In this document: positions 4,077 through 47,087 of the stretch, piece after piece | How the letters are laid out: every line of letters starts with the position of its first letter | Position numbering within the stretch: the first letter of the stretch is position 1 | DNA from: Tubulanus polymorphus | Taxonomy: Eukaryota > Nemertea > Palaeonemertea > Tubulaniformes > Tubulanidae | Direction of reading: 5' to 3' | Assembly: GCF_964204645.1 (NCBI RefSeq) | Contig: NC_134031.1 | Span: 16,179,307 to 16,243,306, forward strand | DNA: 64,000 nucleotides | The notes under the pieces: generated by a model | Databases searched by the model: none | Told to the model about the DNA's origin: nothing | The model's input: the letters and a program-made list of their open reading frames with translations, nothing else | Position numbers and translations under genes: made by a program

Positions 4077-4103
4077 TATATATATTATATATATATATAT
4101 TTT
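4077..4103. repeat. TA-dinucleotide microsatellite
   Basis: A run of alternating T and A with one interruption, in the spacer after zinc-finger exon 5. Confidence 0.8.
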
Positions 4104-11604: not shown

Positions 11605-12479
11605 AATTATTGGTATTCGTTCGAGTTTCAAGGCGCGGCGAATAACATCCGCACCAACCATAGCTAAATAACTTTACCGATATATTCTTGTATGTCAGTC
11701 CATCATTGTATGTCCATCATAAGCCATAAGCTCTCCAGTCAATCTGCAATAGTCAAAAAAGTCAAAAAAAGGAACCACGAAAGAGCATTTGCTCAACTTG
11801 AAAACTTGATATACATTTTCTCGATAACTATTTTTTCTAAAGGAATTGATGTAGCTGTTGTGTACAGCTGTTTTGTCCCCTCGGATACACGCTTTTAACC
11901 GAAGTACCGTATTTAGAAATATTAGCGATAACTATATATAGGACTTACACCAGGTGCTTAACGGATTCCTATCCCAGACAAGTCGATACGGACAACTCCA
12001 TCCGTTCTGTTGCACGATCCGCCATCCCCGTAACTTGTCGGTTTCCAATTGGCGGGGAGAACTGGTAACCGTTTTGATGTGTCCGCGAATGTAAAATCAC
12101 TTATATCGACCAATAAATTCTGAAAATTTGTAAATTGTAAATACAGTTTCAACCAGTCCGTATTAACTCATTTGAATATCCAAGCATCGCAGGTTACACA
12201 AGAACCCACGACAAGATTGAGGCGGATTTTATTGAAATAAAATTCCGGATACATTTTGTATGTGGGTTCATTTTGGTGTGGCATCGATGAAATCGCGTAG
12301 TTGGCGTCTTCTCTAGCTGGCTGGTAAAGATAATTTATGTCCTGCTTTCGACGAAATGTTTTAACAATAAATAGCGATGCTTTCATTAAAAATACCGTCC
12401 AAAAAAAGTTGATAGGTGCCATCCACCGCGATACCATTACCAACAAAATGTTTACAACGGTTCGGAAACAGGCCAACAT
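11605..12479 (-). pseudogene. GP1: broken PAN-GON gene, opposite strand
   Basis: Three exon relics read on the minus strand. Exon 3 starts at 12479 after a retained ttttag acceptor (GLFPNRCKHFVGNG) and breaks at a TAA where intact copies have the Tyr of IYCYN. The exon 4 relic (about 12120-11951) carries DFTFADTSK and RIDLSG, then a TAA just before its donor. The exon 5 relic starts at 11743 after ttgcag (IDWRAYG) and ends near 11605, with a stop and a scrambled middle. No exon 1 or 2 was recognised. The relics face away from the seven plus-strand family members, so GP1 was inverted after duplication. Confidence 0.8.
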
Positions 12480-15242
12480 CTAAAATGACAGCAAGCGACG
12501 ATTGAAAATGAAATGCAGATATATTTGGACGGATGTTGGCAAAGATTGAAGTATTTACCATATCGTCTGTATCTCATTGCACCAGTGATAAAAGACACTG
12601 AGGTATAAGTTAGTACATATTTCAATTAAATTAAAAAGACACTGTATTCTATATTCAAATGCTATGCTATACGCTTCGCAGTACAAAAAATGTCCTATTT
12701 GGCCACAAATGAATCAATCTAGATTAGACAGAATTTATAATTAGTTGTGATTCGATTAATTTTATTCACTCATTAGTATTATAACAAATACACATATGAA
12801 TATTTCACAAACTTACCTGTTCCCGTAATGAAATGATTATGATATAATCATAACTATGTGATATAGATTTCTTTGGGGGGGGGGTTACTATTTTCATTAC
12901 GTCTCGTTACGATCGACGATATCAATCATTTATGCGTTTGTGAAATGAACCATTGGTTTTTAGCTGTAAGGAGAGCGGGAATGCCGCCTAGTACAGAAAG
13001 AAACAACGAAGATAATCTCAATATAGTTGAATGTCAAATCTGATCATTTCATATCTACGCGATGTACATATATTATTGTCAATCGAAAGATTCAAAAACC
13101 TATTCGGTAAATAATCATATCATGATTGAGGCTGAAGAACAGTATATGAAATTCCATGCAACGATAATGTGTTGAACAACACGTTAAATACAGTGAGAAA
13201 AATAAAAGTAAAAAAGAAAAGAAAATGAAAGTGAAAAATATATGATTCATACAAAGATGTGAACTGTAAAATGAGTGCATGCGAACTAAGAAAGAAACTA
13301 AATTTATATTTTAAATATGAATTAGAGAGAGGATGCATTCCTAGGTCAGTGTAAACAAATATCAGAGAAGGTTATTCTAGAGAATGAATTTCGCTGATTA
13401 ATTTAACAAGATCGTAGAATTTTCCGTTTTAGTTTGAGTTGAGTATTTTTTTAACAACGAGAATCGAATTTTATAGATTAATAACAATAATAAAGAATAT
13501 CTGTATAGCGCGTTTCCACATTGCCACGCTTGTGCAAGTTTTTGTGGAACAACCATGTTTTTTTCGATACTGTATACATGGATTTCGTGAATTAATTATG
13601 ACCATGCATTTTGCGAATGGAAGCGTTGTTGAGTATATGTTATAGACAGCCAGACGGAAAATAATAAATGAAAAAACTAATGTGTTTTGCGATCATTCTA
13701 TCTGGGTTTAAAAGCGATTAAAGTCGTAATTGAATAGCTGCCTATAGTATAAAAATGAAAACATGAAATTCAATAGAAAATCGAATAAATATTTGCTGTT
13801 TAAAGTTTTAAATCGACAAAAAAGAATAATTTCGTCCCCAGGACGACGCATCTGTGAAATGGGCCTTGGCTCATTTAGATTTGTATCCAAAACTATATAG
13901 TGTGGTGGTGGCATCGTTAAGCAATCATCCATTCTGGTTCAAGGCGAGAGCATATACGGTCTTTCCTGAGTTAAAGGTAATGTACAAATTTATAGAACCG
14001 GCCCCAGAGGATTCCTAACCCTAGAGGGTCCGTCGTATAAATCACTTATTTCGTTTTCCAATCGATATGGCGTAAATCGGCTGTAATGACTTTAAAAGGC
14101 GAGAACTTTGCGCTGGTAGAATGTGTCAAGTCTCGGGAGAATTCAAGCCCATATAATCGATTAGTATTTGCCATATTAATCAGGGATATGCGCGTGTTTA
14201 ATTCATGTAAGGACTTATTTTCATACTAAAAACGGCTCGGTTATCAATATTTCTGGATCTATCAACTCGTGTGAAGAGAACATATGCATCACCCGTTTCA
14301 AGAGCCCGTTCTAGACACCACAAAGTGAATGTCAATACGTCAAAATCGTTAGTACACACAAAAACAAACGAAACCAGCTATTCAGAATGGCAACCGAACG
14401 ATTAGAAGAAATAAAGCCTTTTTCAATTGTTGAATAGAGGGAGATACAACCAGACACTATGGGGTTGTATCAGTCAATTCTTTTTAGGATTCGTCAGCAT
14501 CTCAAATGAATTGTCTATATATGCACGTGTCATTAATATCTCTTAAAAAAACCTTAATAGTATTCTATCTATACTTCAAGTGTGCATATGATTTTTCTTG
14601 AAATTGTTTTTGTTTTCTTACCGACCTTTCATGATTGTGGGTACGGTGAAGGGTTGTTTAGTACATGCATGTATGAATGCTTCGGTCACTTTGGGCAGTG
14701 TACGATATAAGTTTGTGACTTCTCTCCGGGTTTCAATTGAAACCACACCGATTTTTATGTAAAAATAATTGTTGTTTTGTATCTTAAAGTGTATTTTTTC
14801 AAGTATTCGGTATATAACTTATTGCATGAAGCTAAATAATAACTCTTTATCTTATATAACATACTCGACAATCATACAAGATATGTATACCATTATGTCG
14901 AGGAAAAACTTCGCAATGAGTCACGAAAAAGAGTTGAATATAAGTCCCACAATCACGAAGCCGGGCTAGAAAATAGAAACGCTGAAAATCTATATATCAT
15001 TATACAGATTTGCATTATAAATCTGAATTTCAGGCTTTTCACTAAAAACTATCATCAGGGGAATCATTAAAAACATACCGTGATAATGGTTCGTGATTGA
15101 AATTCACTTTCGTGATTACGTGGGACAAATTTACACCATTGCGTTCGTTGATGAAAAAGTGCATCACGTGACCCATTATATATTCATGATAGTGACATCG
15201 ACAAAATGCCAATGAAAAATCGAGTATTCTATTCAAAATAAG
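12480..15242. other. Intergenic region, no gene seen
   Basis: AT-rich DNA between the inverted relic GP1 and GP2. A G-run lies at about 12875-12884. No open frame here has splice context, domain similarity or composition suggesting coding. The GP2 promoter should lie near its right end. Confidence 0.4.
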
Positions 15243-17652
15243 ATGAAGCCTCGGTGGGTAAAGATGTCGTTGAATGTCATAATAATAATAACAATATCGT
15301 GCGCGATTATTCCGTCTTCATTGCAGTCCGAATTTGTGCGAATAAATCAACATTTTGGAGGTGTATCCAATTTTGCGATGAAAGGCCCGTATCTAACGGA
15401 ATATAAAAACCTAGCCCCGTTAAACTGTGTCCGCAGTTGTATGGATAAATCGGACTGTTCATCATTTAATTACAACGAGAATTTGTGTCAGTTGAGTTCA
15501 GAACTACCAACGGATGCTTTGGATCTTGAAATAGCGGACGGTAATGTGTTTCAATATAAAGTAAGTATCGACGCAATGTAGTCAAATACTTTAAAACTTA
15601 TACAAATGAATACAAACTGTACACAAGAAAATATAAAATTAACACTATAATAATCATACGTGTGTTATTCGCCATCCAAGGGCAACCATAATGGCCCCAT
15701 GCGTGATTTTTAGATTCTTGTATACAACCAAATTGGCAAGCTAGCCAAAAATTCATGTTTGTTGCGGTTCTGATGCTTTCTGGTTTTCTGCGGTTCTGGT
15801 TTTTTCCTGAACATATATCCTTAGAAGTCCATATATTTGGATTATCACGTGCCTTATTATGTGATAATGTTTGATTCGAGTTAAGAAAAACTGCCGCGTA
15901 ACAATAAATACGTGCATGACACGTTACCTTTTTAAGACACTGCGCGATCGCAAAAAATCTTAGAAGCTAAATGACTCAACATCTACTCCAATTCTTCAAG
16001 TTTTTAGACTATCAAAAATGGATTTGATTGAAGATCGAAAACTAATATATCGGGCTTCGTTACGCTATTTTTCAGTGCAATGGTGACATTTACTGCAGAC
16101 GATTCGGTAAGTTAGTGCATAACTCATAACCATCAGCACGCTCTTCAAAATATATACGGCAACTTATACTATTCAACTAAACATTAATTTTGGTTTAAGG
16201 AATTTACCCTACACATGTGGAACAAAACAAATTGAGCTATGAAATAAGGTTACTTGATAAAACGTATACAAGTACTTTACTCGTCACACTCATAATTCTG
16301 CATTATTTAAACGACTGATATAGTGTTTCTTTCTATCCACGTGTTTGTGGACTCTTGACATTCTACAATCACGATAATCATTACTGAAACAGGAAAATTG
16401 ATTTTCGTTAACCATTTCTACTCCTATAACTGTCTACTTTTCCAACGTGAGTTTAAAAAGAAACATCTACAACAACTTACATGCATTTCGGTGCCGTGTG
16501 CGGCGGGCTTTAGCAGACGATTAGATTCAAAATGTTTCGTATTTTAAGATCGCATTTTTGTAATTTTAGATTTTCGTGTGTTTCCAAACCGTTGTAAACA
16601 TTTGGTTGCTAATGGTATCGCGGTTGATGGCGCTTATCAACTTTATTTGAACGGTATTTTTAACGAAAGCGTCGCAATTTATTGTTACAACATGTCGTCG
16701 AAAGCAGGACCTATAGAATATTTACCTTTGCCAGCTGGAAAAGACGCCAACTACGCGATTACATCGAAGCCGCACATACACCAAAATAAACGCACATACA
16801 ATATGTATTCGGAATCATACTTCAGTAAAATTCGCCTCAATCTTGACGTAAGTATAATGACAATGTTTTAAGGCATCTTTTGAACTGCCTTTGATGTGAA
16901 GATTTTAAAAGCTTTTCGATCATTGTCACACTTATTTTTTAGTTTCGTCTGATTATCTTATTTATCTTATTTATTTTATTTTTTCTAGGGCATTTTTAAT
17001 GTGTGTTGTTTATTCATTAATTCTATTAAAATTGCATATGAAAAATTAATCATCATCATCGTCGTCATCATCTATTGAGTCAAATGACTTTCTTCTCTAC
17101 AGACTTTTCATGTGGTAAGAAATGACTTCACATTCGCGGACACGTCAAAACGGTTACCAGTTCTTCCAACCAATTGGAAACCGACAAGTTACGGGGATGG
17201 CGGATCGTGCAGCAGAACGAATGGAGTTGTCCGTATCGACTTATCTGGAACAGGATTCCGTTTAGCTCCCGGTGTACGTTCTACGTTATCGTTTTAAAAT
17301 CAATACTTCGGTTTGTATCCGGCGTGTATCCGAGGGATGGATAAAAAACGATATGGATGTACATGACAGCTACATCAATTAGAAAAAAAAATTAATTGAA
17401 GAAAATAGTTCGGAAAATTAATATCGCATTTACAAGTTGAGAATAGCTCTTTTGCGAATACTTTTAGTTGGGTTGTTTTCTAAGATGACTTGGTTTGGAT
17501 TTTTGCAGATTGACTGGAGAGCTTATGGCTACGCTGGACGACTGACATACAAGAATATATCGACAGACCGTCAAAAAGTGACGGTTAAGTGCTATGGTTG
17601 GTGCGGAGGTTGTTCTCCGACCGGCGCCCTGAAACTCGATCGAATCCAATAA
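15243..17652 (+). CDS. GP2: secreted PAN-like + GON-domain protein, intact
   Basis: Exons 15243-15560, 16076-16106, 16570-16847, 17103-17273 and 17509-17652, with phases 0,1,0,0. The product is about 313 aa. Exon 1 gives a signal peptide (ATG 15243; an alternative Met at 15264) and a PAN/apple-like module (NCVRSCMDKSDCSSFNY, LCQLSSEL). The 31-nt exon 2 codes CNGDIYCRRF. Exons 3-5 are a GON domain: NRCKHLVANGIAVDG, YCYNMSSKAGP, YFSKIRLNLD, DFTFADTSK, RIDLSGTGF, CYGWCGGC. GON is known from the C-terminus of ADAMTS9/20 and C. elegans GON-1 metalloproteases. No protease domain is present here. The extracellular location is supported; the function is unknown. Confidence 0.88.
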
Positions 17653-18141
17653 AGTCCAAGCGAAGTGTTAATGATTACAAACTGTGTTACTAATTTTAGT
17701 ACTCTTCTAGAACTCTTAATCGATGCAAGCGAAAAAAATCTTTGATCGTCTGTTATAGCAACGTGTTTGTTTCATTTCAATCAGAACTAGTCAGTTATTT
17801 AATCATCGACATCGGTTAAACAGCCGTGATATAGGGTATTTAGGATCCTGCAACCAATCATCTGGCGCGGGCGCCGGAAAACCCTGTTAGTGCTAACCAT
17901 GGTAGACTAACAGTTTCCTGCACCTGCCCTTGTACTGTTACTAGGTGGTTTTCTGGGCAACTTAAATATGTCTGTATAAGAGTACATTTTCCGAAATCAA
18001 ACCCGTCATTTTCAGCGTTAATTTACCAGGATATGCTTCTCAGGAAATACTTACAGGAGACAACTCGACAGCAAAACACTGACACATACATCAGTGGGAA
18101 ACTTCACTGAACAACCATCATCATGCACAGCCATCATCAAC

Positions 18142-19270
18142 ATGATGCGAGCTTTTTCGTTCGCTGTCCTCTTTTCGTCGATTCGATGTGATTCTATTAA
18201 GATAGGTCAATATTTTGGAAGTTTATCAAATTTTGCAGTAGCTGGTCCATATTTGGGTGTATACGATCGAATTACGCCCATTGTACTGTATTTTAGTATA
18301 AAGTAAGTAGTTGTAAGTTTCAAGGCTAGTTTATTGCTCCAAAATAGATACATAATTTTTCCCAGCATAACAAAATTGTATTTATATAAATATCGTAGCT
18401 GGCAAATTTGTACATAATGATAGCCCTAACAGCCGGGTGGCATTCGTTTATGAATTAAGATAGCTGAATGTAATGTAAGTTTTCATTGTTGAGTAAGTTA
18501 AAATGATTTGCACCAATTTTATAGCATATTAATCGTCCCTTTCGTTAGGCCGTTGACTCTTCGGTTTAGAATCCATGTTTAGGCCTATATATTCACAGGG
18601 ACTCGTATTTGTTTGTGGTGAACTGTAGCTTAGATCATCCAGCATCCCTGGTACTATTATTTTCATACCAGGGATACAGGGCGATCTAAGCTACAGTTCA
18701 CCCCCAAACTTCAAATACGAGCCCCTGTGTATATATTCGGATGTTACTGCTGGTGACATCGCTATGGTCGTTTTGTACTTTTATCTTTAGTTTAACTGAG
18801 CCATCATTATGATAATTGGAAATATGATGCAATTAAAAATTTGTGAGTGGCTTCATTTTTGTAGATATTCGCCTGTTTCCGAAGCGTTGTAAACATTTAG
18901 TTGCTAATGGTATCACGGTGGATGACACTTTATCAACTTTATTTGAACGGTGTTTTCAATGAAAGCGTCGCCATTTATTGTTACAACATGTCGTCGTAAG
19001 CAGGACCTAAAGAATATCCAACTCTGCACAGCTGGAAAAGACGCCAACTTCAGGATAACTTCAAAATCACATGAAACCAGTAAAATCCGCCTGAATCTTG
19101 ACGTGAGTGAAAATTCTATAAGTATGCTTAAGTGAGCTTAATTATCTGATTTTCATATTGTTCTATGAAGTGAACCTTTTAACTTGAACATCAAACCGGT
19201 TCATACATTCCAGACTTCACAGGTTGGTCGAGATGATTTCACGTTCGCGGACACATCAAAATGGAACTTT
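18142..19270 (+). pseudogene. GP3: degenerate PAN-GON gene
   Basis: Exon 1 (ATG 18142) keeps a signal peptide and GPYLGVYDRITP. It then loses about 100 bases, including both PAN cysteine motifs, before a shifted donor at about 18301. Exon 3 (18865-19102) has a 1-base insertion, an in-frame TAA in MSS(stop)AGP, and a deletion of about 40 bases. Exon 4 begins at 19213 (DFTFADTSK) and stops abruptly near 19270 at the edge of a segmental duplication. No exon 5 follows. A hAT-like MITE sits in its intron. It cannot code a full product. Confidence 0.85.
18594..18729. mobile_element. hAT-like MITE with perfect 8-bp duplication, complete copy
   Basis: The 136-bp element begins CACAGGG and ends CCCCTGTG. 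It is flanked by TATATATT at 18586-18593 and again at 18730-18737. The arms are long inverted repeats around a short loop. It is the uninterrupted relative of the element at 7039-7341. Confidence 0.88.
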
Positions 19271-19273
19271 CAA

Positions 19274-21530
19274 AGTAGAATTTTCGCATTCGGGTGTCGA
19301 GTTTAATCCTCCAATGTTCTGTCACCCATTCACTTCGTGCCTTAACACACATTCTTGAGCCATAAGTATTAGGACACAGCGGAAATAGTTGTAAGTTTTC
19401 ACAAATTAGTTATTTATCTTATTTCAGTTTGATAAAGTCTAATTTCACGTCCTACATGTGCCCCGCTTTCTTGCGTTTAGGCGTTTCTTTGGCATGATAT
19501 TTGGTCTAGTCTATTTCATATATCTGCAGTAGATTTCATATGCTTATAATTTGCTGTAAATTTTGCATACAACGAAATGGAAATATGAATTTTGTCTGTA
19601 ATTAATAAAATCTGGAGTTATCTGGTTACGTAACTATTTTGTTATGAAATGCGTTCTTATTATTGCTGTTTTTGTAATTTTGTAGTCAACTACTTTCGAC
19701 GTTCGATTTCTAGATTCATTAAACAGGTCCGTTAACTAACCACCGCTGTTGTTTGTCTGTCTGGTTTGTCGTTCGTTCGTCGTCGGTGTTGTTTGGTTCG
19801 TCCCATATCGGTAGAGACCTCGATCATATTTTCGAATGCAAAAACGCGTTCGATGCCAATCTCAGAAAAATCCCATCCCCTCCTATATATACATCAATGA
19901 ATCATCAAATATGCAAACGACTCTTACACGATACAAAATTATCATAAACGGGAAAAATCAATAATATTTCTTCGATAGTCGACGTTAGTTCGTGCAGAGA
20001 TGCCCCAACTGAAAAGATAAACAGTATTCGTATCCACCAGTGCTGGTAGTGGTAAACTTCGCCTTAGTTGAAACTCCTTCGTCTAAACAACAAAATGCGA
20101 GTTTTCGCTGTCATTTTACTCTTTTCGGCGATTCACTGTTCAGTTCCTAAGATAAGTCAACATTTCGGAGCGTCGTCGAATTCTGCAGTACGCGGGCCGT
20201 ATATTGCCGAGCACAGGAACATTTCCAACTTCGAATGCGTCACGAGATGTTTGAAAAGAAAAGTTTGTTTATCATTTAATGTTAATGAAACTTTGTGTCA
20301 GTTGAGTTCAAAATTACCAGATGGAGCCGTGGATTTGCGAGTAGAAGACGGTACTATATTTCAATTCAGGGTAAGTTATAAGAAAGCAAAATTCGTTTCT
20401 TGAATCAAAGACCAAATAGTTAATTTATCTAGTTTCATCTTTACGGCAAAGAAAGATATTATTTCCATCTTCTCACATTATCTTAATTTACAACTTAAAT
20501 GAATGTGCAGCTTTTATTCAGGTAGACCATTTTGTTTTACAATTTTGTTTGGTTTTGCTGTTAAGCAATGCGAATCAGTTAAACGGGATTCTAACGGACT
20601 TGAATTGAAGATTTGAAGGATTCGAAGAGCGAAATCTACGTAGATTTCTCTTTTTTGCTATTACGGTTGAATACGATTTTTTCAACTCATTTCAGTGTGC
20701 TGGTGATATATATTGTAACCGATATGGTAAGTGTGCTTTGTCATCTTTTCAAAGCCTTGATATGCACAAACCTCTATTTACTGATGAGGAAAAAACAAAC
20801 AGCAATGTGAATTATTCTAACGCCAGTCGAGTTCGGGTTTTCGGATAAGTAGGTTTCGTGATTTCGAGTGGCAACCGCGGTATTCTTATGAATTTCCCTT
20901 CTGGCTATCATATATTGGTTAAAACAATGTCCTAAAATGCGTGCTCATTCAGTCCCAACCAACGGATGAAAAGGTTTTGCATCAATTGGTGTGGGAGGCA
21001 TTCTCAGCATCGCCTTCTCGTTGTTGCGAGAAGTGAAATCAAGAATCCACATTATAGAATAGGATAAACCAGAAATATTGTACAATTTGAATTTAGAGTC
21101 GAATATCAGTTGTTCAAAACTGGGTTTTTTTTTGGCTTTGCATGTAGTTTTATTCACGATTTAACTGAACCATAATTGGAATAATTAGAAATATGATGAA
21201 ATTTACAATTTGAATTTAGATAGTGAGTGGCTTTATTTTTGTAGATATTCATGTCTTTCCAAACCGTTGTAAACATTTGGTTGCTAATGGTATCGCGGTT
21301 GATGGCACTTATCAACTTTATTTGAACGGTATTTTCAACGAAAGCGTCGCCATTTATTGTTACAACATGTCGTCGAAAGCCGGACCTAAAGAATATCTAA
21401 GTCTGCCAGCTGGAAAAGGCGCTAACTACGCGATGATATCGAAGCCAAACATAAACAAAAATCAACTTACAAACCATATGTATTCGGAATCTTACTTCAG
21501 TAAAATCCGCATCAATCTTGACGTAAGTAG
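19274..21530. repeat. Segmental duplication, copy A (contains GP4 exons 1-3)
   Basis: Starting at 'agtagaattttcgcattcgg', the sequence matches 25538 onward through about 650 bp of spacer, GP exon 1, micro-exon 2, intron 2 and exon 3, at very high identity. Copy B is longer because it carries two insertions, at about 26190-27040 and 28041-29549. The left break cuts exon 4 of GP3. Confidence 0.85.
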
Positions 21531-23268
21531 ATAAAGTTTACAAAACGATTGTAATGAAAACATTGAATGAAAAACCCTTTCATATGATCGGTTTCTGTGA
21601 TTGTGAATGAGTTGATCATACGAATCAATATCAATCAGAAACCATACCTAATTCCACCTTTGTCTAAAAGAATTGTTGAAAGTTGAAACTTTATTTGAAC
21701 GTAATTTTTGACAAAAGCTTCGCCATTTATTGTTACAACATGTCGGATTGTTACGCCATTTATTGTTACAACAAAGGAGGACCTCAATACGGAAGCGATA
21801 AGGGGCCTCGAGATGTCGCGTTCCAACTCGACTAGTCGTCATATTTATGTCGACATACCGCGATATATCGCGTCACGTCGACATGAATATGTCGATATAT
21901 CGTGACGTTTTCACTACAAATTTCGCTTTTTCGCCCATTTTCCACGGGACAAACCGTCATTTGAAGACATGTCTAAATGTAAGATGAGGACACCAGTAAT
22001 ATGACGACTGAGTTTCAAGTCGTCGTGAATATGTCGACTTGTCGCGAGGAAAGTGGTCGAGAAAGCGAAATTTGTCGTGAAAACGTCACGATATGACGAC
22101 ATATTCATGTCGACTTGACACGATATATCACGATATGTCGACATAAATATGGCGACTTGACGAGTTGGAACACGACAACTCGAGGCCCCTTATCGCTTCC
22201 GTACCTAAAGAATATCTAACTCTGCCAACTTGAAAAGACGCAAACTTAAGGATATATTCAAAACCACATAAACACGTTGATAAGACAAATACAAATGACA
22301 AATATTCTGAGACATAAATATGGCGACTTGTCGAGTTTGAATGCGACATCTCGAGGCCCTTTATTTTTTTTTAATATGTCGACTTGTCGCGAGGAAAGTG
22401 GTCGAAAAAATGAAATATGTCGTCAAAACGTCACGATATGTCGACATATTCATGTCGACCTGACGCGATATATCGCGATATGTCGACATAAATATACGGA
22501 AGCGATAAAGGGCCTCGAGATGTCGCGTTCCAACTCGACAAGTCGTCATATTTATGTCCATATATCGCGATATATCGCGTCAAGTCGACATGAATATGTC
22601 GACATATCGTGACGTTTTGACGACATATTGCGTTTTTGCGACCATTTTCCTCGCGACAAGTCGACATATTCATGACGACTTGAAACCCAGTCGTCATATT
22701 AGTGGCGTCCTCATATTACATTTAGACGTGTCTTCAAATGACGGTTTGTCCCGTAGAAAATGGGCGAAAAAGCGAAATTTGTCGTGAAAACGTCACGATA
22801 TGGCGACATATTCATGTCGACTTGACGCGATATATCGCGATATGTCGACATAAATATGACGACTTGTCGAGTTGGAACGCGACATCTCGAGGCCCCTTAT
22901 CGCTTCCGTATAAATATGGCTACTTGTCGAGTTGGAACGCGACAACTCGAGGCCCTTTATCGCTTCCGTAGTTTTGGTATTTCTAACCTTATCTTACTAT
23001 CCCGATAAAACTTTTATCGGGATAGTAAGCAGCAGGAAGCCCCTAAGTAGTTGCTTAATTTCACGAGATGTTTGATTTCTAACTACACTTTGCTGACATT
23101 GATAACGTATACCTATTTTAGGTTGACTGGGTACTCCTGGGACACAAGCCTCTTATGAACAACAAACACATAGCAAAGGATCGCCGGAAAGTTGTCATTA
23201 AATGTCATGGATTATGTGGATTCTGCGCCCCGATTCGACGTGTTATAAAGCTCGAACGTGTCCGTTAA
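20095..23268 (+). CDS. GP4: PAN-GON protein lacking exon 4
   Basis: Exons 20095-20370, 20696-20726, 21245-21522 and 23122-23268. The start is ATG 20095 (MRVFAVILLFS signal peptide); the upstream Met of GP5 is TTG here. The PAN-like motifs (FECVTRC, LCQLSSKL) and the first GON half (NRCKHLVANG, YCYNMSSKAGP, YFSKIRINLD) are intact. Exon 5 reads VDWVLLGHKP and CHGLCGFC, ending in TAA. No DFTFADTSK exon is found between exons 3 and 5, an interval filled by 416-bp elements and a broken extra exon 3. Exon 4 is symmetric (phase 0/0) in the siblings, so splicing exon 3 to 5 stays in frame and would give about 243 aa. It could be a functional short form or a dying gene. Confidence 0.6.
21685..22300 (+). 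pseudogene. Broken extra copy of GP exon 3, split by a 416-bp element
   Basis: The left piece 21685-21787 and right piece 22204-22300 are degraded exon 3 sequence (tttatttgaacg, attgttacaacatgtcg, then cctaaagaatatctaac). The 416-bp element at 21788-22203 is inserted between them and duplicates CCT(C/A)AA. The left piece also holds a short internal duplication. Confidence 0.75.
21788..22203 (-). mobile_element. 416-bp long-inverted-repeat element, copy 1
   Basis: It begins TACGGAAGCGATAAGG and ends with the complement CTTATCGCTTCCGTA. Each arm is about 150 bp, rich in nested 'tgtcgacata' and 'gcgatatatcgc' palindromes, around a unique centre of about 110 bp. The centre is in reverse orientation relative to copies 2-6. 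Flanking 6-mers are CCTCAA and CCTAAA. No transposase is encoded, so it is non-autonomous. Confidence 0.9.
22303..22970. mobile_element. Truncated 416-type copy hosting a nested complete copy
   Basis: Fragments at 22303-22494 and 22911-22970 are 416-element sequence, rearranged and partly deleted (a second fragment begins at about 22377 after a T-run). The complete copy at 22495-22910 lies inside and duplicates the host's own TAAATA. Confidence 0.8.
22495..22910 (+). mobile_element. 416-bp long-inverted-repeat element, copy 2 (nested)
   Basis: Exactly 416 bp from TACGGAAG to CTTCCGTA, flanked by TAAATA at 22489-22494 and 22911-22916. The target is the 'cataaatatgg' segment of an older copy of the same element. 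Confidence 0.92.
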
Positions 23269-23391
23269 TCCCTAGAAATTCAAGGATTTGCCCATTTAAT
23301 TGGGGGAGGGGGTTACTGAATTTTGGTACAAAGTGGTACATGGGGGATGGGGGTCAGCAAAAAATGTACGTACTTTGAGGGAGGGGGTATT

Positions 23392-24176
23392 TATGGTGGC
23401 TGATTCAGGTCATGTAATAAAAAAATCATAAACGTTACAAATTTTTTTTTGCTGACGCTTAAAAGTCGTTTTATTGCGCAATAAAACGAGAAAAAGTCGT
23501 TTTATCGCGCGATAAATCGAACTTTTTCGTTTTATTGCCACGTTAAAACGAAAAATAGCGCGATAAAACGAAAATTTAACGCAATGAAATGATTTTTTAT
23601 TCGTTTTACATCGTGATAAAACGAAAGAACAAATTCCGTTTTCTCCATTTTTCGTTTTAACGTGGCAATAAAACGAAAAAGTTCGTTTTATCGCGCTATA
23701 AAACGACTTTTTCTCGTTTTATCGCGCAGTAAAACGACTTTTTCTCGTTTTAACCCGGTAATTTTCGTTTTATCGCGCTATTTTTCGTTTAAACGTGGCA
23801 ATAAAACGAAAAAGTTCGTTTTATCGCGCAATAGAACGACTTTTTCTCGTTTTAACGCGGTAATTTTCGTTTTATCGCGCCATTTTTCGTTTTAACGTGG
23901 CAATAAAACGAAAAAGTTCGTTTTATCGCGCGATAAAACGACTTTTTCTCGTTTTATCGCGCAGTAAAACGACTTTTTCTCGTTTTAACCCGGTAATTTT
24001 CGTTTTATCGCGCCATTTTTCGTTTTAACGTGGCAATAAAACGAAAAAGTTCGTTTTATCGCGCGATAAAACGACTTTTTCTCGTTGAATTGCGCGATAA
24101 AACGACTTTTAGGCGTCTGTAAAAAAAAATTGCATCATTTGTGATTTTTTTTACATGGCCCGAATCAGCCACCATA
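23392..24176. mobile_element. TIR element swollen by an internal minisatellite
   Basis: The termini TATGGTGGCTGATTC and GAATCAGCCACCATA begin inverted arms of about 70 bp that include 'gacgc(c/t)taaaagtc'. The flanking 6-mers are GGTATT at 23386-23391 and 24177-24182. The interior of about 650 bp is an imperfect tandem array built from 'aaaacg', 'ttcgttttatcgcgc' and 'cgttttaacgtggcaataaa' pieces in both polarities. A 213-bp relative without the array is at 61821-62033. Confidence 0.88.
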
Positions 24177-24555
24177 GGTATTAATCAATCTTGGTACGTA
24201 CTTTATGCACCAAAACTCAAATGAAAATAGCCGATACTGGTGTTTTACTGGTGTTTTTCAACTGGGAATTCCCCATACCAGGTACCGGTATCGATCTTAT
24301 ACACGCACTTGTTGGAATCAGGTATTTATATTTTTTTTGTATTTTGTTTTTATTTGTGTTCTTTGCATCAATATAATTTGGGGGGTGGCCATGGTACGTA
24401 CCTATGAGGGGGTCAGTGTATTTGGTACAAAGGTGGTACAAGGGGGAGGGGAGTCAGAAAAACGGGAGATTTTGAGGTACGTAATTTCTGAACGCTCCCT
24501 TATCGCATCTTAACTTACTTTTTGGAACCACGTCTTACTGGAATACGGGTCATAA

Positions 24556-26905: not shown

Positions 26906-27209
26906 GCACGTCCCTATGGCGTAATGTCGTAAGATTCAACCAGTCCAATATTGGCGGATTAATTCCAAATACCAGTCCAATGTGATAAGTCTCTGCTGGA
27001 ACTATTTAATGCTATAATGGACTTGAGCCATGACGTTCACACGATACAATATTATCATAGACGGGAAAAATCAATAATATTTCTTCGATAGTCGACGTTA
27101 GTTCGTGCAGAGATGCCCCAACTGAATGGATAAACAGTATTCGTATCCACCAGTGCGCTGGTAGTGGTAAACTTCGCCTTAGATGAAACTCCTTCGTCTA
27201 AACAACAAA

Positions 27210-35421: not shown

Positions 35422-35639
35422 TGCGACGGCGATATCTACTGCATAGAATAGAATATATTCTATTGCACACGAAAGTACATTTGCTTAGAGCCAAAAGACA
35501 TTAAAAAATGAATGTCAATACAATATCAGGACAATATCAGAAGCAAAATTATGTTGTATTTTGGATAGGCAATAGCCAAGGCTAATATCTCTCCAAGATT
35601 ACACTTCACAGTTAATGTGTGACAAAAAATGACAAAGCA

Positions 35640-36910
35640 ATGTTATTCAAAATATTTGAGACCTCTTCGTATAAATAAGGCAAGCTTTCGGAGTTTTACA
35701 TCTGATGATCTAAATAAATCTACAAATTTATGTTATTGTGGGTTATCTACAAAGTACAAGCTAAAAAGGTCTCGACGGAAATTGGCAAAAAACGGACAAA
35801 CAGATATGAAATGAAATTCGTCATAGACAACTCGCATATTACACGTTGTGCAAAGTCTGTGCACACGTGGGACACGGTTATACCTCCCAGTTTCAATAGG
35901 GAAGCGGTGGTTCGAACATCGAAATAATAATAATAATAAATTTATTTCCACAATAAAATTACAACATGTCATAAAGAGATATACAAATATGAAATGTTTT
36001 AATATAATGTGGAGGAGATTAGATGAAGCCAATGAACGCTTATAAAATCTCTAATCCCCTAGCATACACCGATTCACTCAACTCATACACACATGCAGTC
36101 GTACACCTTCACCCAACATGCACCCACACACGTAGTCACTCAGGCGGTCAATCACACTATCTTTCATTCACTCTTACAATCTGGTAATAGATGACAGATA
36201 CAGACAGATTAATTACAAATTCATTAGATACAATTTAAGTTTTCTTTTGAAAGTATCTATACACGACAGTTGTTTTAAAATCTACAAAGGCTTATCCTTA
36301 AATCGTCTGACAATTGAGTAAGATAAGTTTCAAATCCCCATTCCGTTTTGAATATCTTATATAAATCAGCAATACTAGAAATGCTACACTGATCCCTCCA
36401 ATATTGAATGAATTGGTCCTTTAATCGTAGTGACAGACTTTGCGCTACATAATCGGGGTTATGCGGGGTTTGGTCGTACCAAAAATGTCCAAGGCCGTTT
36501 GTTATAAGCGTGTTTTGGATGAAAACTAACAAGGAACCACATTCTGCAGACTTTAGTATAACATGCGATATTTTAGATGATAATTTATTGCTATTACGCA
36601 GTTTAGCCCAGAACTTCATTAATCTAATTTTTATAATAATTTCAAGTGGAAAACGCCCTATCTCTCCATACGCAAAAATGGTAGGAGTTGACTCCTTTAG
36701 CTTCCAAAGGTACTTAACAAATTTCAATATGACGATATTGTGAGTACGAACACTCCACAAACGGAAGCTAATATTAAATTATTGATACAAAGGGCACGAA
36801 AAAGCGGACTTTCGACTTTTTCGAGCATATTGTGAAGCACGCCGTAAAAACGGACGAGATTACCTATGTAATATGAATTAGTGTTTTTATCTCCTTTATA
36901 TGAGTACATG
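35640..36910 (-). mobile_element. Decayed non-LTR retrotransposon (LINE) 3' fragment
   Basis: The minus-strand frames at 36760-36275 (EIGRFPLEIIIKIRLMKFW, LSDDLRISLCRF) and 35895-35733 (ETGRYNR, CTTCN...HFISVCPFF) match in order the end of the LINE protein at 38580-39811 (ELGRYPLNL, CPTCN...HFLFDC). Stops and frameshifts break it upstream of 36760. A foreign piece of about 350 bp separates the two blocks. Confidence 0.75.
35926..36274 (-). mobile_element. AAT-tailed insertion inside the decayed LINE
   Basis: Read on the minus strand, it starts just after LRISLCRF at 36275 and ends in an ATT-repeat tail at about 35925-35942, where the LINE frame resumes. A 3' simple-repeat tail with short similar flanks (gattt and attt) suggests a SINE or a 5'-truncated LINE. 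No tRNA-like head was recognised. Confidence 0.5.
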
Positions 36911-37909
36911 AATATTCCAGCTGATTTTTACCTCCCCGAACTCTTGAATTATTCAATAAACCAAATCGACTAAAAATCCTAAAATTGGTCTCTTTTACAA
37001 AATTCGATTGTCGTGAAGTCTGCATCCAGTGCATACACCTATTACTTTAAGGTGCATAGTTTATGAGTACCATATACCAACTTGAAGTTGAACCAACCAT
37101 AAGAACCATATACGATAAACCAATGTATAACACTGCATTCTTTGTTTTTCCCCAGACCTGGCTGAGTGTTACTGACGATTTTGCATTTGCAGAGACGTCA
37201 AAACGACTACCATCAGTTTAAAAGTACTGGCGGTTAGGTTCTTGTAGACCTGCGTTTGACAACAGTTCATGTAAACAAGATGATAAATTGAGGTTTACCT
37301 CGGTATCTTAGCAATGATTACGTTCAGGGATCATATTTTCCTATACAAATTAATTTCATCTATCAAAATCTATGGACAAAACAAATGCATGCTTCAAGGG
37401 CATATTTAACACTGATGGCATCCGAGGTCACCGTAAGCAAAATGATGCAACGGCACTGTTGATATGTATTTTCATTTCAAATTTTTTCTTGTTAACAAAA
37501 CACGAGGGATTATTGTTTAAACCTTCAGGAATGCCTGGGTGGCTGAAGGTAACGATGCTTAAATAACCTATCGGACCGCCGCCAAATCATCGATGTTAAG
37601 TGCATCGGCAATTGCGGAATGTGCCGCCCGAACGCTCCTTTGAAACTCGTCCGTAACCGAGAATCTCCTTAAAGGCTGGAACTGAGCACAGGAATTCCAG
37701 CCAATTAGAGACCGAATATACATAGTACCGTTAGCATCATTAGTTTGATGTCACAAACATTCAATTTCAAGTAGTTTCAAACGCAAACCGAACCCAGGAA
37801 GAAAGACACTCTAAATATTTGGATGGATATATGAAAGCTGTGGGTACTGGAGTGTGTAATGGGTAGTGTAGTGTGATCTGTGTGCATTTGTGGCCAGGAC
37901 ACAGATCAC

Positions 37910-37990
37910 ATTCACCAAGAACCTTAGTGTCTGATGTACCACAGTGGTTACACAGGATCGTAGAGGAACGTAGATACACTGTGGAGACAG
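37910..37990. repeat. Dispersed repeat shared with 53045-53125
   Basis: 'accaagaaccttagtgtct' and 'gtaccacagt(t)ggttacac' recur at 53045-53125 at high identity over about 80 bp. The open frames across it are not believed to be genes. Confidence 0.6.
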
Positions 37991-38579
37991 CCACACTGCC
38001 AGGACTGGGTGAAAGATCACATTGTTCAATGGGGTTTGGTCCAGGACTCGCGAGATTTTCAACAACACGGAAGTAACGTGTAATAAATGATGACTTGAAT
38101 TGCATGACTTCCTACCACACCCCTCATTATTGTTGGAAAACTAAACGTTCGGCACTGATTAAAAATTAGTAATAACATTTTAGAAATGGCCAGAATTTTA
38201 ACTTAGGTTCTATCTCATTTCTATTTTACAATTGCGATTGGTATGATTTTTTTTAAACGGCCGTTAAGGCTTCGTGTTTCGGCTGCAATTCACTGCAAAT
38301 AGTTACGCAACTATGCACATTTCAGTGTTTTTGGCAGCTGTACACTCAATCGGCACCGTTCGTGACTAGCTTCGCTGCGGAATTATCATTAATTAACATC
38401 GCCATATCACATCATCAACTTATATTGTGCCTTAAAACCCTAACAGCCGAAATAATTGAAATGCACACACGATTTCTATCATTGAAAATTGAGAGAGTGG
38501 CCATGTTTGTGTTTGCTGCTTCGCGTAAATCCCGCGCGGTGGCGCAACCGCGCGGAGTGGGGATCGTGGAAAACCGACT

Positions 38580-40026
38580 TTGTCATTTATAGAAAAACTA
38601 AATTTGAATCGTGATCAGGATATTGATACTTTACTGAATTTATTCATAATACTATACGCAGATGATACAGTTATTCTTGCTGAGGATGCGAAATCTCTTC
38701 AGCTACACTTAGATACCTTATTTGAATATTGCGCGGCTAATGGTCTCACTGTTAACTCAGAGAAAACTAAAGTACTAGTATTTGCGCGAAGTAAATCCCG
38801 GATAAAAACGATTTCGAAATTTATGTTTGGTGATCAAGAGTTAGAGGTAGTTGAAGATTATGTTTATCTCGGAGTAAAATTCAATTGGAATGGTAACTTT
38901 GCTAAGGCAAAAAGTATCTTTACGATAAAGCTATGAGAGCTATGTTTTCGATCGTTCAAAAAGGCAGACGTTTGAAATTTCCCATAGATGTTATGTTTAA
39001 ATTATTTGATACGTGTGTTGCTCCAATAGCCATGTATGGGTGTGAGATCTGGGGATACGAAAATCTTGATTTATTAGAAAATATTCATTGCTTCTTCTGT
39101 AAAATCTTAATGAAAGTGACGAAATATTCTCGCAACTTACAAGTTTTATCAGAGCTAGGACGTTACCCCTTGAATTTAGATGTTAGACGCAGGATGATTA
39201 ACTTTTGGGTTAAAACAGTATCTGGAAAGCAAACCAAACTTAATTCAATACTCTATAAAATATCTTTCAATTTATTTTTAAGGGATAAATTTAAGAGCCC
39301 TTGGTTATCATATATAAAGAAAACGTTTGATGACTGTGGTTTGTCCTGCATTTGGACGCAGCAATTCACGACTAACAGTAAATCTTTTTCAAAACGAATA
39401 AAACAGATACTCCGTGACCAGCACCTTCAAGAAACTGTATCTGCCATAAATACTAATCCGATATACACTAACTTTAGGCAATATAAAAATGATATTAGGT
39501 TAGAGAAGTATATAATAGAACTTGGTGATGACTTAGGAACTAGTTTATTTGAATTCAGGGTCGGGTCCTATATTTTACCTGTGAACAAATTTTCAAACCT
39601 TCATTTAGACAGAGCCGATAGAATATGCCCCACTTGTAATACTTTAGGTGACGAATCCCATTTTCTGTTTGACTGTACCTTACTTAACGAACAACGCAAA
39701 AACTTTTTGAATTTGAATACCTTAAATACCCTTGATATTCTGAAAAACCCAACGGTCAACTTAGCTAAATTCATTAAGACCGGCTTAGATGTATATAGAT
39801 CCCTCCAATAGTATATATAGTATTGTAAATAGTTGATGTATATAATAGTATATATAGTATTGTAAATAGTTGATGTATATATATATTTCGTTACGTTTTC
39901 ATTCTCTAAATTTTAATCACTTCAGTGTTGTTTTGTAAATATTTGTATATACATGTGTAATAATTTTCCTCCATATACCATGGAAATGGTTGGAGTGTAA
40001 ATAAATCGTAATCGTAATCGTAATCG
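38580..40026 (+). mobile_element. 5'-truncated non-LTR retrotransposon (LINE), reverse transcriptase C-terminus
   Basis: The frame from 38580 carries the RT catalytic motif YADDT (YADD at 38655-38666), then VNSEKTKVLVF and YVYLGV. A one-base shift near 38920 moves the frame, and it continues to 39811 with MYGCEIWG and a Cys-His cluster CPTCN...HFLFDC typical of LINE C-termini. The N-terminal RT fingers and endonuclease are missing. The 3' UTR has a tandem duplication of about 40 bp (39810-39885) and ends in AATCGT repeats at 40004-40026. The clade (CR1, I or RTE-like) is uncertain. Confidence 0.85.
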
Positions 40027-40893: not shown

Positions 40894-43819
40894 ATGAATT
40901 TCCATCTTTTGCGAGTTTTCTTGGTCAGTTTGCTCGTTTCGACGATTCGATGTAAGAAAGATTCTAAGAAAAGTCAGAATTTTGGAGCCTTACCAAATTC
41001 TGCGATACGCGGTCCGTATTTGGCCGAATACGGGAAAATCACGCAGATGGAATGCGCAAAAAGATGTATGAATAACAAAGATTGTACATCATTTAACTTT
41101 AATGATACTTTGTGTCAGTTGAGTTTTCATTTACCGTGTGAAGCAGCGGATTTAGATGCAGCAGATGGAACTGTTTTTCAATACACAGTAAGTACATCAT
41201 ATTATTACGCTTGACGGTGGCGAGAAAATTTGTCACGCTATGATCCTCTTAGATCACAACAGTGGTTAAATTCGGCACATGTAATGGGGGAAAATGGGAC
41301 ACCTAAGGGCATAACACTGGCGAAAATCACACACAAACTGGACCCAGTTCCACAGTTCTGAGTTAGAGTTAATTTTGAGTTAAAATCAGTTTATTTTCAT
41401 TGTGTTAACTTTAGAGTTAGATCTAAACTCAGAACTGTGGGACTGTGTCCTGTTGAATATGTAACTTTAAAACAATCAAGTATTAGATTGTTTTGCGTTC
41501 TGCAGGGGGGCCGAGGGGGGGGGGTATTTTCTGGTTTGATCAACAATTTTCGGACGTTTAAAATGAAGCGCATATTTTACCACGTTTTGGATAAATAGAT
41601 GAACCGATAGTTCATTATTACATTAGTATTGATAACTGCTAAGAAAAATGTGTTTCATTGCCACGGCTGACCTTATTTATGAAAACAATCCATGGCTTCA
41701 TTGCCACGGCTGACCTTACTTATGAAAACAATCTATGGCCGAATGGAGCATGGATTTGTTAAAGGACGTGATAAGAATATGGACCTCTTTTTCGAGTGAT
41801 AAGCTACAAAACTCGAAACGGCTAGAGTATCAATAAAGATAAGATAAATCAATTAGAAATAATTTGAATGATATGAAAATTCAATGAAATTTTTTCGTAT
41901 CTGCATGAGATAATCAGAATCTACATTGTCCCAGAATATATCAGTAACGCTTGTCGATAAGAATAAATATGTGATGGTATATTTTTCAGTGCAATGGTAA
42001 CAAGCACTGCATGCGATATGGTAAGTGATGAAAATTTAGTGCAATATTTTAGCTGCCGTAACAAGTAACAAGTGCCGTAATTTAGTGCATTTTAGCTGCC
42101 GTAACAATTGTGTATGGAATTTAGATTGGTACCGGTTGACTTTTTATTTCTCGCGCTGCTGATTCAGATTTGAATTTATCGCTCCAGGCGTTTAAGACTT
42201 GTTAGAACACCGAAATTCAAACGGGGGTGCCAGCGACCCCAATTTGGCTTAACGATTTTATAGATATGTCTAGATCTGTTGTAGCTTCAATAGTCTGGTA
42301 CTATTTCCGTTGAAAATGATTTTTTAAACGTAATTTGACAGTTTTTGTCAAATAGAAAATGCATATGATGGATTTATTTAGAAAATCATCGTGATCGAGG
42401 TTTGTTGCGCATCATTACTGGCAGTCCATATTCTTTTTCAGATATCCGCCTGTTTCCAAATCGTTGCAAACATTTGGTCGCTAACGGTATCAAGGTCGAT
42501 GGAAATTATCAACTTTTTCTAAATTGCATCTATAGAAGAGGCGTCACCATTTATTGTCATAATATGTCATCGGAAGAGGGACCCAAAGAATACATATCCT
42601 TTTATCGTGAAAACGAAGGGCAAAACTACGCGATAATATCGAAACCGCATTATTCCGCAAATACATCGGCGTACGATCTGTATTCTGAAACCTATTTCAG
42701 AAAATGTCGTATCGATCTAGACGTAAGTACATGCACAATTAATTTTCTTTCGTGGTTTAATGAAAATTTTTACGGCGAATTCGAAGCGCTTTCAACTAAC
42801 GCACAAAATTAGTATTTGCGAAAAACACGTGGAAACGGACTGAAATGAAAGAAGTATATTTCAGTTTCAGGTAAATAACTGGACGATATAGATATTTGAA
42901 AGTATTTCGTAAAAGAAAACGAATATTATATTATATATATAGAGAAACGAACATGATCAAATATGTATAAGGGAAAAAGACAGACTCTGCTACTTGAGCA
43001 CGCCGCTAACATGTAAATGATTTTCATGGAAGTGTTATTTCTTTCAGCGAAGTGTAACTTTTTGTAATGTACCCACGCATATGTCGTGTACTTTCTTCTA
43101 CAGACACTCGAAGTTGTAACAGACGATTTCACATTCGCAAATACGTCAAATCGGTTACCAGTTCGTCCAGCCAATTGGAAACCAGTAAATTACGGGGAAG
43201 CTGGATCATGCAGCAGCACTGAGGGTGTTATTCGTATATCTGTGTATGGGACAGTTTGGCGTGTAGATAAATCTGTAAGTGTCTCATTATTATCGGTGTG
43301 GGATGAATCGAATCCATACAGAAAATTCATAGCGAAGGGTCGAATCAACAGATATTTTATCAGGTTTTTTATGCAGTAAAAACCGTTACAATAATGTTTA
43401 TATACATTGAGGGGTTCTGTGTGAGTCGATGTGCAGTACGTCATCAATATAAGCGTATCAAAACTTAAAACCTTATAATGGATACATTTTGATTATTATT
43501 TTTGAAAGGATGTGTACTACGTCATCAATACATCGGGGCTAGACTGGTAGCCGGTCAATTCACTTCTATCATCGATATATTCAAATCCAAAATAACTTTT
43601 TATCATCAGTTATTTTTCTTGTTTCAGGTTGACTGGGTGGCTGAAGGAATCAACGCTAACATTACTTTCAAAGATATACCAGCATCGCGCAATAACATAA
43701 CTATTAGATGCGTTGGGTATTGCGGAAGCTGTCGACCGAACGGCCCTTTGAAACTTGCCTATAATGGAATAATTGATCTTAAACCAAGATTGATCAGAAA
43801 GAACCGAACTGCTGATTAA
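40894..43819 (+). CDS. GP7: secreted PAN-like + GON-domain protein, intact
   Basis: Exons 40894-41187, 41990-42020, 42442-42722, 43104-43274 and 43628-43819. The product is about 322 aa. The start ATG 40894 gives a signal peptide (LLRVFLVSLLVSTIRC). The PAN-like motifs are MECAKRCMNNKDC and LCQLSFHL, and micro-exon 2 is CNGNKHCMRY. The GON half has NRCKHLVANGIKVDG, YCHNMSSEEGP, YFRKCRIDLD, DFTFANTSN and CVGYCGSCRPN. Unlike GP2 and GP5 it ends in a basic tail (KPRLIRKNRTAD). An AATAAA lies at 44117-44122. Intron 1 holds a MITE and a roughly 46-bp tandem duplication. It is paired with its near relative GP8 downstream. Confidence 0.87.
41340..41450. mobile_element. MITE, GGACCCAGTTCCACAG termini, copy 2
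   Basis: Same terminal inverted repeats and interior 'gagttaa' motifs as the copy at 1966-2076. It lies in intron 1 of GP7. Confidence 0.7.
41651..41742. repeat. Two-unit tandem duplication of about 46 bp
   Basis: 'tcattgccacggctgacctta' with its flank occurs twice in a row in GP7 intron 1, with a few differences. Confidence 0.75.
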
Positions 43820-44319: not shown

Positions 44320-47087
44320 ATGAGTGTCCGAATTTTGCCGCGAGTTTTCTTAATAAGTTTGCTATTTTCATCGATACGATCTTCAAAAATCTCCAAGGTG
44401 CACCAAAATTTCGGAGGTTTATCAAATTCTGCGATACGCGGTCCATATTTGGCCGAATATGAGAAAATCACGCAGATGGAATGCGCCAAAAGATGTATGA
44501 ATGACAAAGATTGTTCATCGTTTAATTTCAATGATACTTTGTGTCAGTTGAGTTTTCATTTGCCGTATGAAGCAGCGGATTTAGATACAGCAGATGGAAC
44601 TGTCTTTCAATATAAAGTAAGTAGTATAATCTCACGCACGTAAGAGATATACAAATCATATTTTTAAGACACCTTTTTCACTCAGTTACCCTGTCCTGGG
44701 ATGACTGTCATGTGCAACGTATTAGGCCTACTTTCTAAATAATAAATGGCCTAGACTATTCTTCGATTTTCTTGCTATCTTTTGATTTCGATCCTGATTA
44801 AATTTTGCTACGGAATTTGACATTTACATTAATAATTTTTTTCATATTCAAATTGTGGTGGCTATTCCACTTTTCTATCGTAATACGCGATAAACTGGCC
44901 AAGAATCGTCTTTCTATTTCGAATGAAACTACATGTAGCTAGCTTGAAAAATGACGTTTAGTTTGTTCTACCGACTACAAAGTCCTTAAGAAATGAAATA
45001 TTCATTATTATCAATAAATACACAAACACCGTTACAATAACGTTTATTTGTCTATGAATATCTCAATAATCGGGTATACAATATCACATATTCTTTTTTC
45101 TGGCTACAAACTTTTTCAACCTAAATATTGCTCTTTCGCTTTATTTTTCTATCATATGCTGATTGAATTACAATCGAATATATCGTGAAACCACAGGGGC
45201 CTGGTGCAAAAATATGGTTCACCCTTGTTTCCGAGGTATACATTATTAAACCTAGGAAACTGGGGTCAAAATAATATGCGCCAGGCCCCTGAGCGTCAAA
45301 CATAAAATTGTAGAATGTAGATCTGATGTTAAGTCGGTTTTTTTTCAGTGTGCGGATGATGTTAAGTATTGTAGAAAATATGGTAGGTATACATGTATCG
45401 TATGGCACACTTGAATATCCATATCGCCGATATTTTCACGGATGACAAATGATATTTGTATCTGCGATGAAATATTTATGGTAACTTATACAACCAGGGG
45501 CGGATAGGTTTCTGAGTACCGCACGCTCAGCTACGGAAATGGAAAATTCTGAATTCTAGCGCTCCGGCGAGATGCAATCTGCGCACATTCGGGCCATCAA
45601 ATCTATCCTTCTATATGCATCCACAGAATATGGCATTTTGACGGAAGAATGTTCGTTAAAGAAACATGAACAGTTTATTATTTTCGATTTTTCAAATTGA
45701 CAATTTCAATAACTTTTACCAGAGCTTGAAAAATAGAAGGGAACTTCTACAATCCTGAGTACCGCTCAAGCTATAGTAGCGGTTGTAGCGGTAGGCTGGA
45801 TCCGCCTCTACAACACGAAATGTTACATTCCGAGCAAAAAAATCTAAATCGAATCCAATTCCTAAAAAAAGTATCCATGTGTTATCCCTTAGCCCTCGCA
45901 TGTCGACGAAAGGAATTTATTACTGAACGAATCCGTATTTCAGATATTCGCCTGTTTCCAAATCGTTGCGAACATATCGTCGCAAATGGTATCAATGCGG
46001 ATGGCAATTATCGGCTTTATTTGAACAGTATATTCGATGTTGGCGTCTTTGTTTATTGTTATAACATGTCGTCGCAAGAAGGTCCTAAAGCATATTTGAA
46101 TCTTAACTGGGGAAGAGACAAAGGCGAAAACTACGCGATGATATCGGAACCACATTATTCGCAAAATATATCAACGTACGATTTGTATTCGGTGACTTAT
46201 TTCAGGAGAATCCGCATCAACCTAGACGTGAGTATATATATAAAAAAATCCGGTGCGATGCGAAAACGAGTAAGATGTTGTAGATATCACAATATTTTAT
46301 TAATAACATTATTCCAATTTTCCACATAATGCCTCGGAAGGACAACAGATAAATTTAAAAGGAGTGAAAATGAATGTTATTCAAATGATGGGAGATAATT
46401 AACTGTTATGCAAATCTGAAGATTGAAAATTGAGATGAATATAATTTTTACAAGATTGAAAATCAACACGGACATATAAAACAAATTTATTTGTTCAATT
46501 GAAATATTGTGATGAAAATGCGGAGGACTATTTTTTTTCAATTTGATGATTTTTGCTGGATTCCGGAAGGCCTAAATTTCATAAAATTATGAATGTCGTT
46601 TGTGTAAAAAAATTCCTAACATTTTAACATGATATCTTAGACGTATGAGCTTGCAACGGACGATTTCACGTTCGCGGACACCACCACAAATCGATCAGCC
46701 GTTCGTCCAGCCAATTGGAAACCTGCAAATTACGGCGAAGCTGGATCATGCAGCAGCACTGAGGGCGTTATTCGCATAAGCTTATCAACGACGAGATTGC
46801 ATGTACATAAATCTGTAAGCGACAAATAGAACCAAGTATAGTGTTTTAATGTACCTCTGCTTCATGGGAGCACAAGTAAATTTGATAATATTTTTTTTCA
46901 GGTTGACTGGGTGGCTGAAGGAATCAACGCTACTATAACTTTCAAAGATATATCAACGCGACGCAGTAACATAACTATTAGATGTGTCGGTTATTGCGGA
47001 AGCTGTCGACCGAACGTCCCTTTGAAGCTTACTCGTAATAGGCGACCTAAATATCATAAGAAATTGATTAGAAATACCGGTAACTGA
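44320..47087 (+). CDS. GP8: secreted PAN-like + GON-domain protein, intact
   Basis: Exons 44320-44616, 45349-45382, 45944-46227, 46641-46814 and 46902-47087. The product is about 324 aa. The start ATG 44320 gives a signal peptide (RVFLISLLFSSIRSS). The PAN-like motifs are MECAKRCMNDKDC and LCQLSFHL. Exon 2 is 34 nt (CADDVKYCRKY), one codon longer than in the other intact copies. The GON motifs are NRCEHIVANGINADG, YCYNMSSQEGP, YFRRIRINLD, DFTFADTTT and CVGYCGSCRPN, with a basic C-terminal tail. The donors are GTAAGT, GTAGGT, GTGAGT and GTAAGC. It shares long exon 1 and 5 stretches with GP7. Confidence 0.87.
45194..45291. mobile_element. 98-bp MITE with CAGGGGCCTGG termini
   Basis: Inverted ends CAGGGGCCTGGTGCA and TGCGCCAGGCCCCTG with one mismatch, in intron 1 of GP8. 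CAGGGG ends suggest a hAT-type element; no clear 8-bp duplication is visible. Confidence 0.65.

Follow-up and report, generated by a model that had tools for sequence, protein, structure and literature searches.

A 64,000-nucleotide stretch of Tubulanus polymorphus DNA (hereafter, the window) carries a tandem family of genes that pair a PAN domain with a GON domain, so far described mainly at the tail of ADAMTS9/20, without a protease. On balance, we favour reading the genes as a tandem family whose products are small secreted proteins with two binding modules. TBLASTN searches with single exons placed eight loci (GP1 to GP8) where an earlier, sequence-only reading of the same DNA had put them. 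That reading also had the count, the orientation and the common five-exon plan right: four loci are intact (GP2, GP5, GP7 and GP8), one lacks an exon (GP4), three are broken (GP1, GP3 and GP6), and GP1 is inverted. Its claim of a tandem expansion likewise stands, with a ninth remnant now added to the eight loci of the cluster.

The shared plan comprises one exon for the predicted signal peptide and PAN_1, a micro-exon of 31-34 nt, and a GON domain divided among three exons. Splice-site inspection yielded five exon sets with consensus AG/GT borders, and the introns of the five splice-consistent genes (GP2, GP4, GP5, GP7 and GP8) agree in phase: phase 1 follows the micro-exon, and phase 0 follows PAN, GON1 and GON2. 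Intact exons were recovered in the window’s six frames at E 1e-25 to 1e-55, using profiles derived from the same exons. The joined open frames of the four complete genes span 299-324 aa (GP2, 306; GP5, 299; GP7, 322; GP8, 324), and GP4, which has no GON2, maintains its reading frame over 243 aa.

All exons of these five genes lie on the forward strand. Each was located by TBLASTN and the gene model, except the micro-exons; Pfam additionally marked exon 1 of GP2 and GP8 and GON exon 1 of GP5, GP7 and GP8, and splice sites additionally marked GON exons 1 and 2 of GP2. In GP2, exon 1 (predicted signal peptide and PAN) occupies 15264-15560, the 31-nt micro-exon 16076-16106 (CNGDIYCRRF), and GON exons 1 to 3 occupy 16570-16847, 17103-17273 and 17509-17652. 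The corresponding positions are 27210-27485, 27816-27846, 29798-30075, 31125-31295 and 31573-31716 in GP5; 40894-41187, 41990-42020, 42442-42722, 43104-43274 and 43628-43819 in GP7; and 44320-44616, 45349-45382, 45944-46227, 46641-46814 and 46902-47087 in GP8. GON exon 3 contains the stop codon in all four. GP4 consists of exon 1 (predicted signal peptide and PAN, 20095-20370), the micro-exon (20696-20726), GON exon 1 (21245-21522) and GON exon 3 (23122-23268). The micro-exons were detected by a splice-grammar search between PAN and GON1, and again by intron-intron BLAST, in which no protein was modelled and several copies proved to share a short conserved stretch. The micro-exon is real. It follows the pattern C-x5/6-C-xRY, measures 31 nt but 34 nt in GP8, and contributes two cysteines between PAN and GON.

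The Pfam GON profile (PF08685; curated cut-off, 22.6 bits) provided a test independent of the exon-derived profiles. The joined proteins of the four complete genes scored 84-94 bits (E 1e-23 to 1e-26) with near-full coverage (profile positions 10-191 to 10-197), bearing out the GON assignment made from the letters alone, and GP4 scored 53 bits (E 5e-14). PAN_1 (PF00024; cut-off, 21.4 bits) matched the joined proteins at E 3e-7 to 7e-4. Scores exceeded the cut-off in GP7 (30.5 bits), GP8 (26.9) and GP4 (21.6) and fell slightly under it in GP2 (20.9; 25.3 for the exon alone) and GP5 (19.8), so that the proposed PAN-like front was recovered near or over the cut-off. When AlphaFold modelled the PAN exon, the core came out at a pLDDT of about 80, and this core superposes on the Sarcocystis lectin SML-2 and similar apple-domain proteins at ~1.3-1.5 Å over 45 residues. 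Its Foldseek neighbours are mostly PAN/apple proteins (SML-2, an Eimeria PAN module, TgMIC4, kallikrein and factor XI); their probabilities reach 0.99, yet no E-value is below 0.1. The window genes have a PAN_1 profile and core fold in common with PAN/apple lectins and adhesion proteins (SML-2, TgMIC4, plasma kallikrein, factor XI) but differ from them in coupling a single PAN to GON. Judged by hydropathy, the N-termini are hydrophobic and no later stretch reaches membrane-anchor hydropathy, in line with the secretion signal originally proposed. Twelve mature cysteines were counted in each of the joined GP2, GP5 and GP8 proteins.

Four of the nine copies are broken. TBLASTN and profile searches traced GP1 to 11633-12480 on the reverse strand (GON1, 12480-12213, interrupted by TAA; GON2, 12101-11949; GON3, 11743-11633, decayed), and a micro-exon remnant was read by eye on the same strand at 12559-12581 (TGCAATGAGATACAGACGATATG, then GTAAAT). 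The same searches found, on the forward strand, GP3 at 18136-19261 (a truncated PAN, 18136-18282; GON1, 18864-19074, with a frameshift and a stop; GON2 reduced to a 16-aa scrap, 19214-19261) and GP6 at 37162-37660, of which only scraps of GON2 (37162-37233) and GON3 (37565-37660) remain. The ninth remnant, additional to the eight loci first reported, was found by profile search as two decayed GON1 fragments (21683-21748 and 22201-22323, together 21683-22323 on the forward strand) in the last intron of GP4, between its GON1 and GON3. Such losses would fit an array in decay that retains little function, but we find that account scarcely credible given four copies with full open frames, intact splice sites and pairwise dN/dS of 0.27-0.37. 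Among all whole-gene comparisons, pairwise dN/dS is 0.27-0.38. GON3 is the loosest part, and several per-exon dS values are saturated. The dN/dS range indicates that the copies are under purifying selection, and pairwise tests among the window copies gave no sign of positive selection. The family had been called fast-evolving; this description fits the divergence of the PAN exons (47-80% identity to GP8), but not the selection results.

Comparing the copies exon by exon revealed a mosaic history. GP4 and GP5 are 99% identical in the DNA of their PAN exons and 91-95% identical over ~1 kb of flanking introns, but only 86% in GON1 and 52% in GON3, and the high identity stops in intron 2. Since identity with GP5 is high in PAN and intron and low in GON3, GP4 is best read, from these alignments, as a composite whose 5′ part was copied recently from GP5 and whose 3′ part is older. 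GP7 and GP8 share 84% identity in PAN, 73% in GON1 and 85% in GON3. The differing histories of PAN and GON exons imply that duplication or conversion has shuffled the copies. Intron 2 of GP5 holds an array of 259-441 bp repeats, where unequal exchange is plausible though unproved. In window positions 22087-31037, repeats of 42, 259 and 441 bp fill this intron and reappear around the 3′ side of GP4; they are a possible recombination substrate.

PAN-GON genes also occur elsewhere in the genome. A second cluster of at least six copies lies on a different contig (C3:22.23-22.45 Mb), where some copies are more than 99% identical and some are inverted. Its micro-exon between PAN and GON1 (CRVLEDDCQRY, CQDLDGDCLRY) has the form C-x6-C-xRY and is 34 nt long, like that of GP8. 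The occurrence of the same micro-exon in both clusters is strong sequence evidence that the exon plan was ancestral to the two. PAN and GON also appear together at three single loci (C3:4.20, C4:26.69 and C6:12.39 Mb), a predicted signal peptide stands immediately ahead of GON at C6:10.76 Mb, and EGF-like repeats adjoin tandem GON domains at C10:10.62 and C7:19.52 Mb, these EGF-like calls being weak in Pfam and derived mainly from cysteine spacing. In the sequence-only reading, free-standing GON proteins had expanded here. The tandem expansion held up; the restriction to this cluster proved too narrow, because protease-free GON genes lie at many genome loci and the C3 cluster has the same micro-exon. 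A tree built from 15 of the genome’s GON1 exons did not sort out the deep branches, and fits either one or several origins of PAN+GON. Family searches of the genome gave no hit for STING, GFP or COX1; TRPM2/TRPM3-like exons are present and mark it as that of an animal. Within the second cluster, three loci (L011, G000:C3:22376000-22385000; L012; L013) are inverted, near-identical duplications, L012 and L013 running in opposite directions with 99.99% identity across 7 kb; either the inverted duplication is recent or the assembly holds the region twice.

Six-frame translations of the window and of the other GON loci retrieved contained neither the reprolysin zinc motif HExxHxxGxxHD nor TSP1 repeats, and the joined proteins had no metalloprotease or TSP1 match in Pfam, consistent with the earlier claim of GON without a protease. 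Of the two outcomes that the earlier reading had named as refuting it, a missing GON profile hit did not occur, and transcripts joining these exons to an ADAMTS protease domain found no indirect sign, as no ADAMTS motif lies near any GON exon retrieved. The window genes have the GON domain in common with the GON-ADAMTS proteins (ADAMTS9, ADAMTS20 and C. elegans GON-1), but they have no metalloprotease, TSP1 or spacer, carry PAN ahead of GON, and encode proteins of about 300 aa, whereas GON-ADAMTS proteins are very long. The literature that we found places GON only at the C-terminus of ADAMTS9/20/GON-1, which would suit an origin of the window genes as relics of a GON-ADAMTS protease or as its competitors, that is, as ends of ADAMTS9/20-like genes that survived the loss of the protease. 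We consider such an origin quite improbable. Besides the missing motifs, the five ADAMTS spacer exons found genome-wide (C5:21.71, C2:24.55, C5:2.69, C1:9.38 and C4:23.05 Mb) are all more than 2 Mb away from any GON exon, exon detection being incomplete. Moreover, a PAN start with the micro-exon is common to two distant clusters, and the architecture is therefore not a recent truncation. Genome matches come exon by exon and some may be missed, so a GON-ADAMTS gene elsewhere in the genome, though not seen, could still exist.

New in this analysis is the match between the GON1 exon profile and fibrinogen-related domains (FReDs). When built from the five GON1 exons of the window, the profile returned only FReDs from the PDB (best E 0.0022); when built from 15 diverse GON1 exons across the genome, it reached E 2.8e-5 (tenascin-C). 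Nineteen of the 21 PDB matches of the latter were FReDs, all at the start of the domain and from eight protein types (tenascin-C, tenascin-R, tachylectin-5A, ANGPTL3, FIBCD1, MFAP4, angiopoietin-1 and fibrinogen gamma); the remaining two were a single fungal enzyme at E 0.64. The alignment is in register with the N-terminal subdomain of the FReD and covers only about 35-60 residues, with a common pattern of roughly C-x6-G-x3-G-x-Y-x-[LI]-x(6-10)-V-[YF]-C-x(1-2)-M. Against the genome’s own FReDs, the GON1 profile scored 10.0 bits, compared with 1.3 ± 1.55 for 100 column shuffles (0/100 as high), and the reversed profile also scored below the real one. Profile-profile alignment by hhalign gave the same register at a probability of only 32%. 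Pfam found no Fibrinogen_C match (PF00147) in the 15 GON1 sequences at E up to 10, and no GON match in FReD sequences. AlphaFold modelled the GON1 exon alone with low confidence (pLDDT 43), and the model was kept out of the fold search; its predicted order is helix-strand-strand-strand. FReDs start with the order helix-strand-strand-strand. The likeness to FReD proteins such as tenascin, tachylectin-5A, FIBCD1 and the angiopoietins ends with this front: the remaining two thirds of GON match neither FReDs nor any solved structure, the profile of GON2 and GON3 having no match in the PDB.

The similarity makes a shared ancestry of the GON N-terminal subdomain and FReDs likely, though not proved. 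Because its front third resembles the FReD N-terminal subdomain, GON most likely serves in recognition rather than as an accessory to a protease. More tentatively, and with somewhat less than even confidence, we propose that GON could be a distant branch of the fibrinogen-type recognition fold, apparently not linked to it before, serving as an independent extracellular binding module in PAN-GON, EGF-GON and bare GON proteins, with the ADAMTS9/20 tail representing one capture. If the fibrinogen-like front is true, it offers a structural hypothesis for the GON domains of human ADAMTS9 and ADAMTS20.

Since a protease is absent and the front of GON is like fibrinogen-type recognition domains, the PAN-GON proteins probably bind ligands outside the cell, most likely as secreted proteins of mucus, matrix or surface defence. 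The signal peptide would export them from the cell, where PAN (apple) and GON, linked by the conserved micro-exon, would each bind partners. In mucus, in matrix or on foreign surfaces, the proteins would probably form a coat on glycoproteins or carbohydrates, or cross-link them. Copies would multiply via unequal exchange and gene conversion, which would shuffle PAN and GON ends and leave some copies to die. As a special case of this explanation, the genes may encode surface-defence lectins, a pathogen-recognition family comparable to FREPs. Tandem turnover, mosaic copies, PAN fold matches to galactose-binding apple lectins and the FReD-like front of GON all fit such a role, but the pairwise tests yielded no positive selection, and we regard it as possible but doubtful.

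A role inside the cell was also weighed. One report on ADAMTS9/GON-1 (PMC4517882) describes GON as important for protein secretion and states that a signal sequence plus GON alone rescues the secretion defects of C. elegans gon-1 mutants. That protease-free construct shows that GON can act alone, and the window genes would be its natural counterparts, although the construct is artificial, PAN-free and taken from a single worm gene. The window proteins might accordingly be secretory-pathway helpers whose GON acts intracellularly, aiding cargo exit from the ER as reported for GON-1. This is unlikely, in our judgement: a tandem, turning-over family with PAN and several dead copies would be unexpected for a housekeeping role, and the C-termini of the joined proteins bear no ER-retention signal. 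Tandem turnover and the PAN domain therefore favour a role outside the cell. The GON literature consulted names no ligand, and natural protease-free GON proteins of ~300 residues are tractable for determining the GON structure and finding ligands. In the literature searched, “GON domain” shares no paper with either “PAN domain” or “cnidarian”, and the accession PF08685 appears in one paper only; GON is absent from the main text of a sea-anemone matrisome paper (PMC12549020).

Several other features surround the cluster in the window. Upstream of it, at 9185-11194 on the forward strand, a gene combines an F5/8 type C (fucolectin-like) domain with a weak PAN domain, so that another PAN-bearing and probably secreted recognition protein adjoins the cluster. 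Fragments like non-LTR retrotransposon reverse transcriptase occur at 36275-39811, close to the broken GP6. C2H2 zinc-finger open frames stand in a row at 727-5049 (forward strand) and are apparent tandem paralogues. Two long, very similar single-exon frames at 54513-55805 and 58344-59705 (forward strand) are GPCR-like, as are two more frames at 32014-33021 and 56273-57304 (reverse strand), and exons at 61411-63165 (reverse strand) resemble an ionotropic glutamate receptor.
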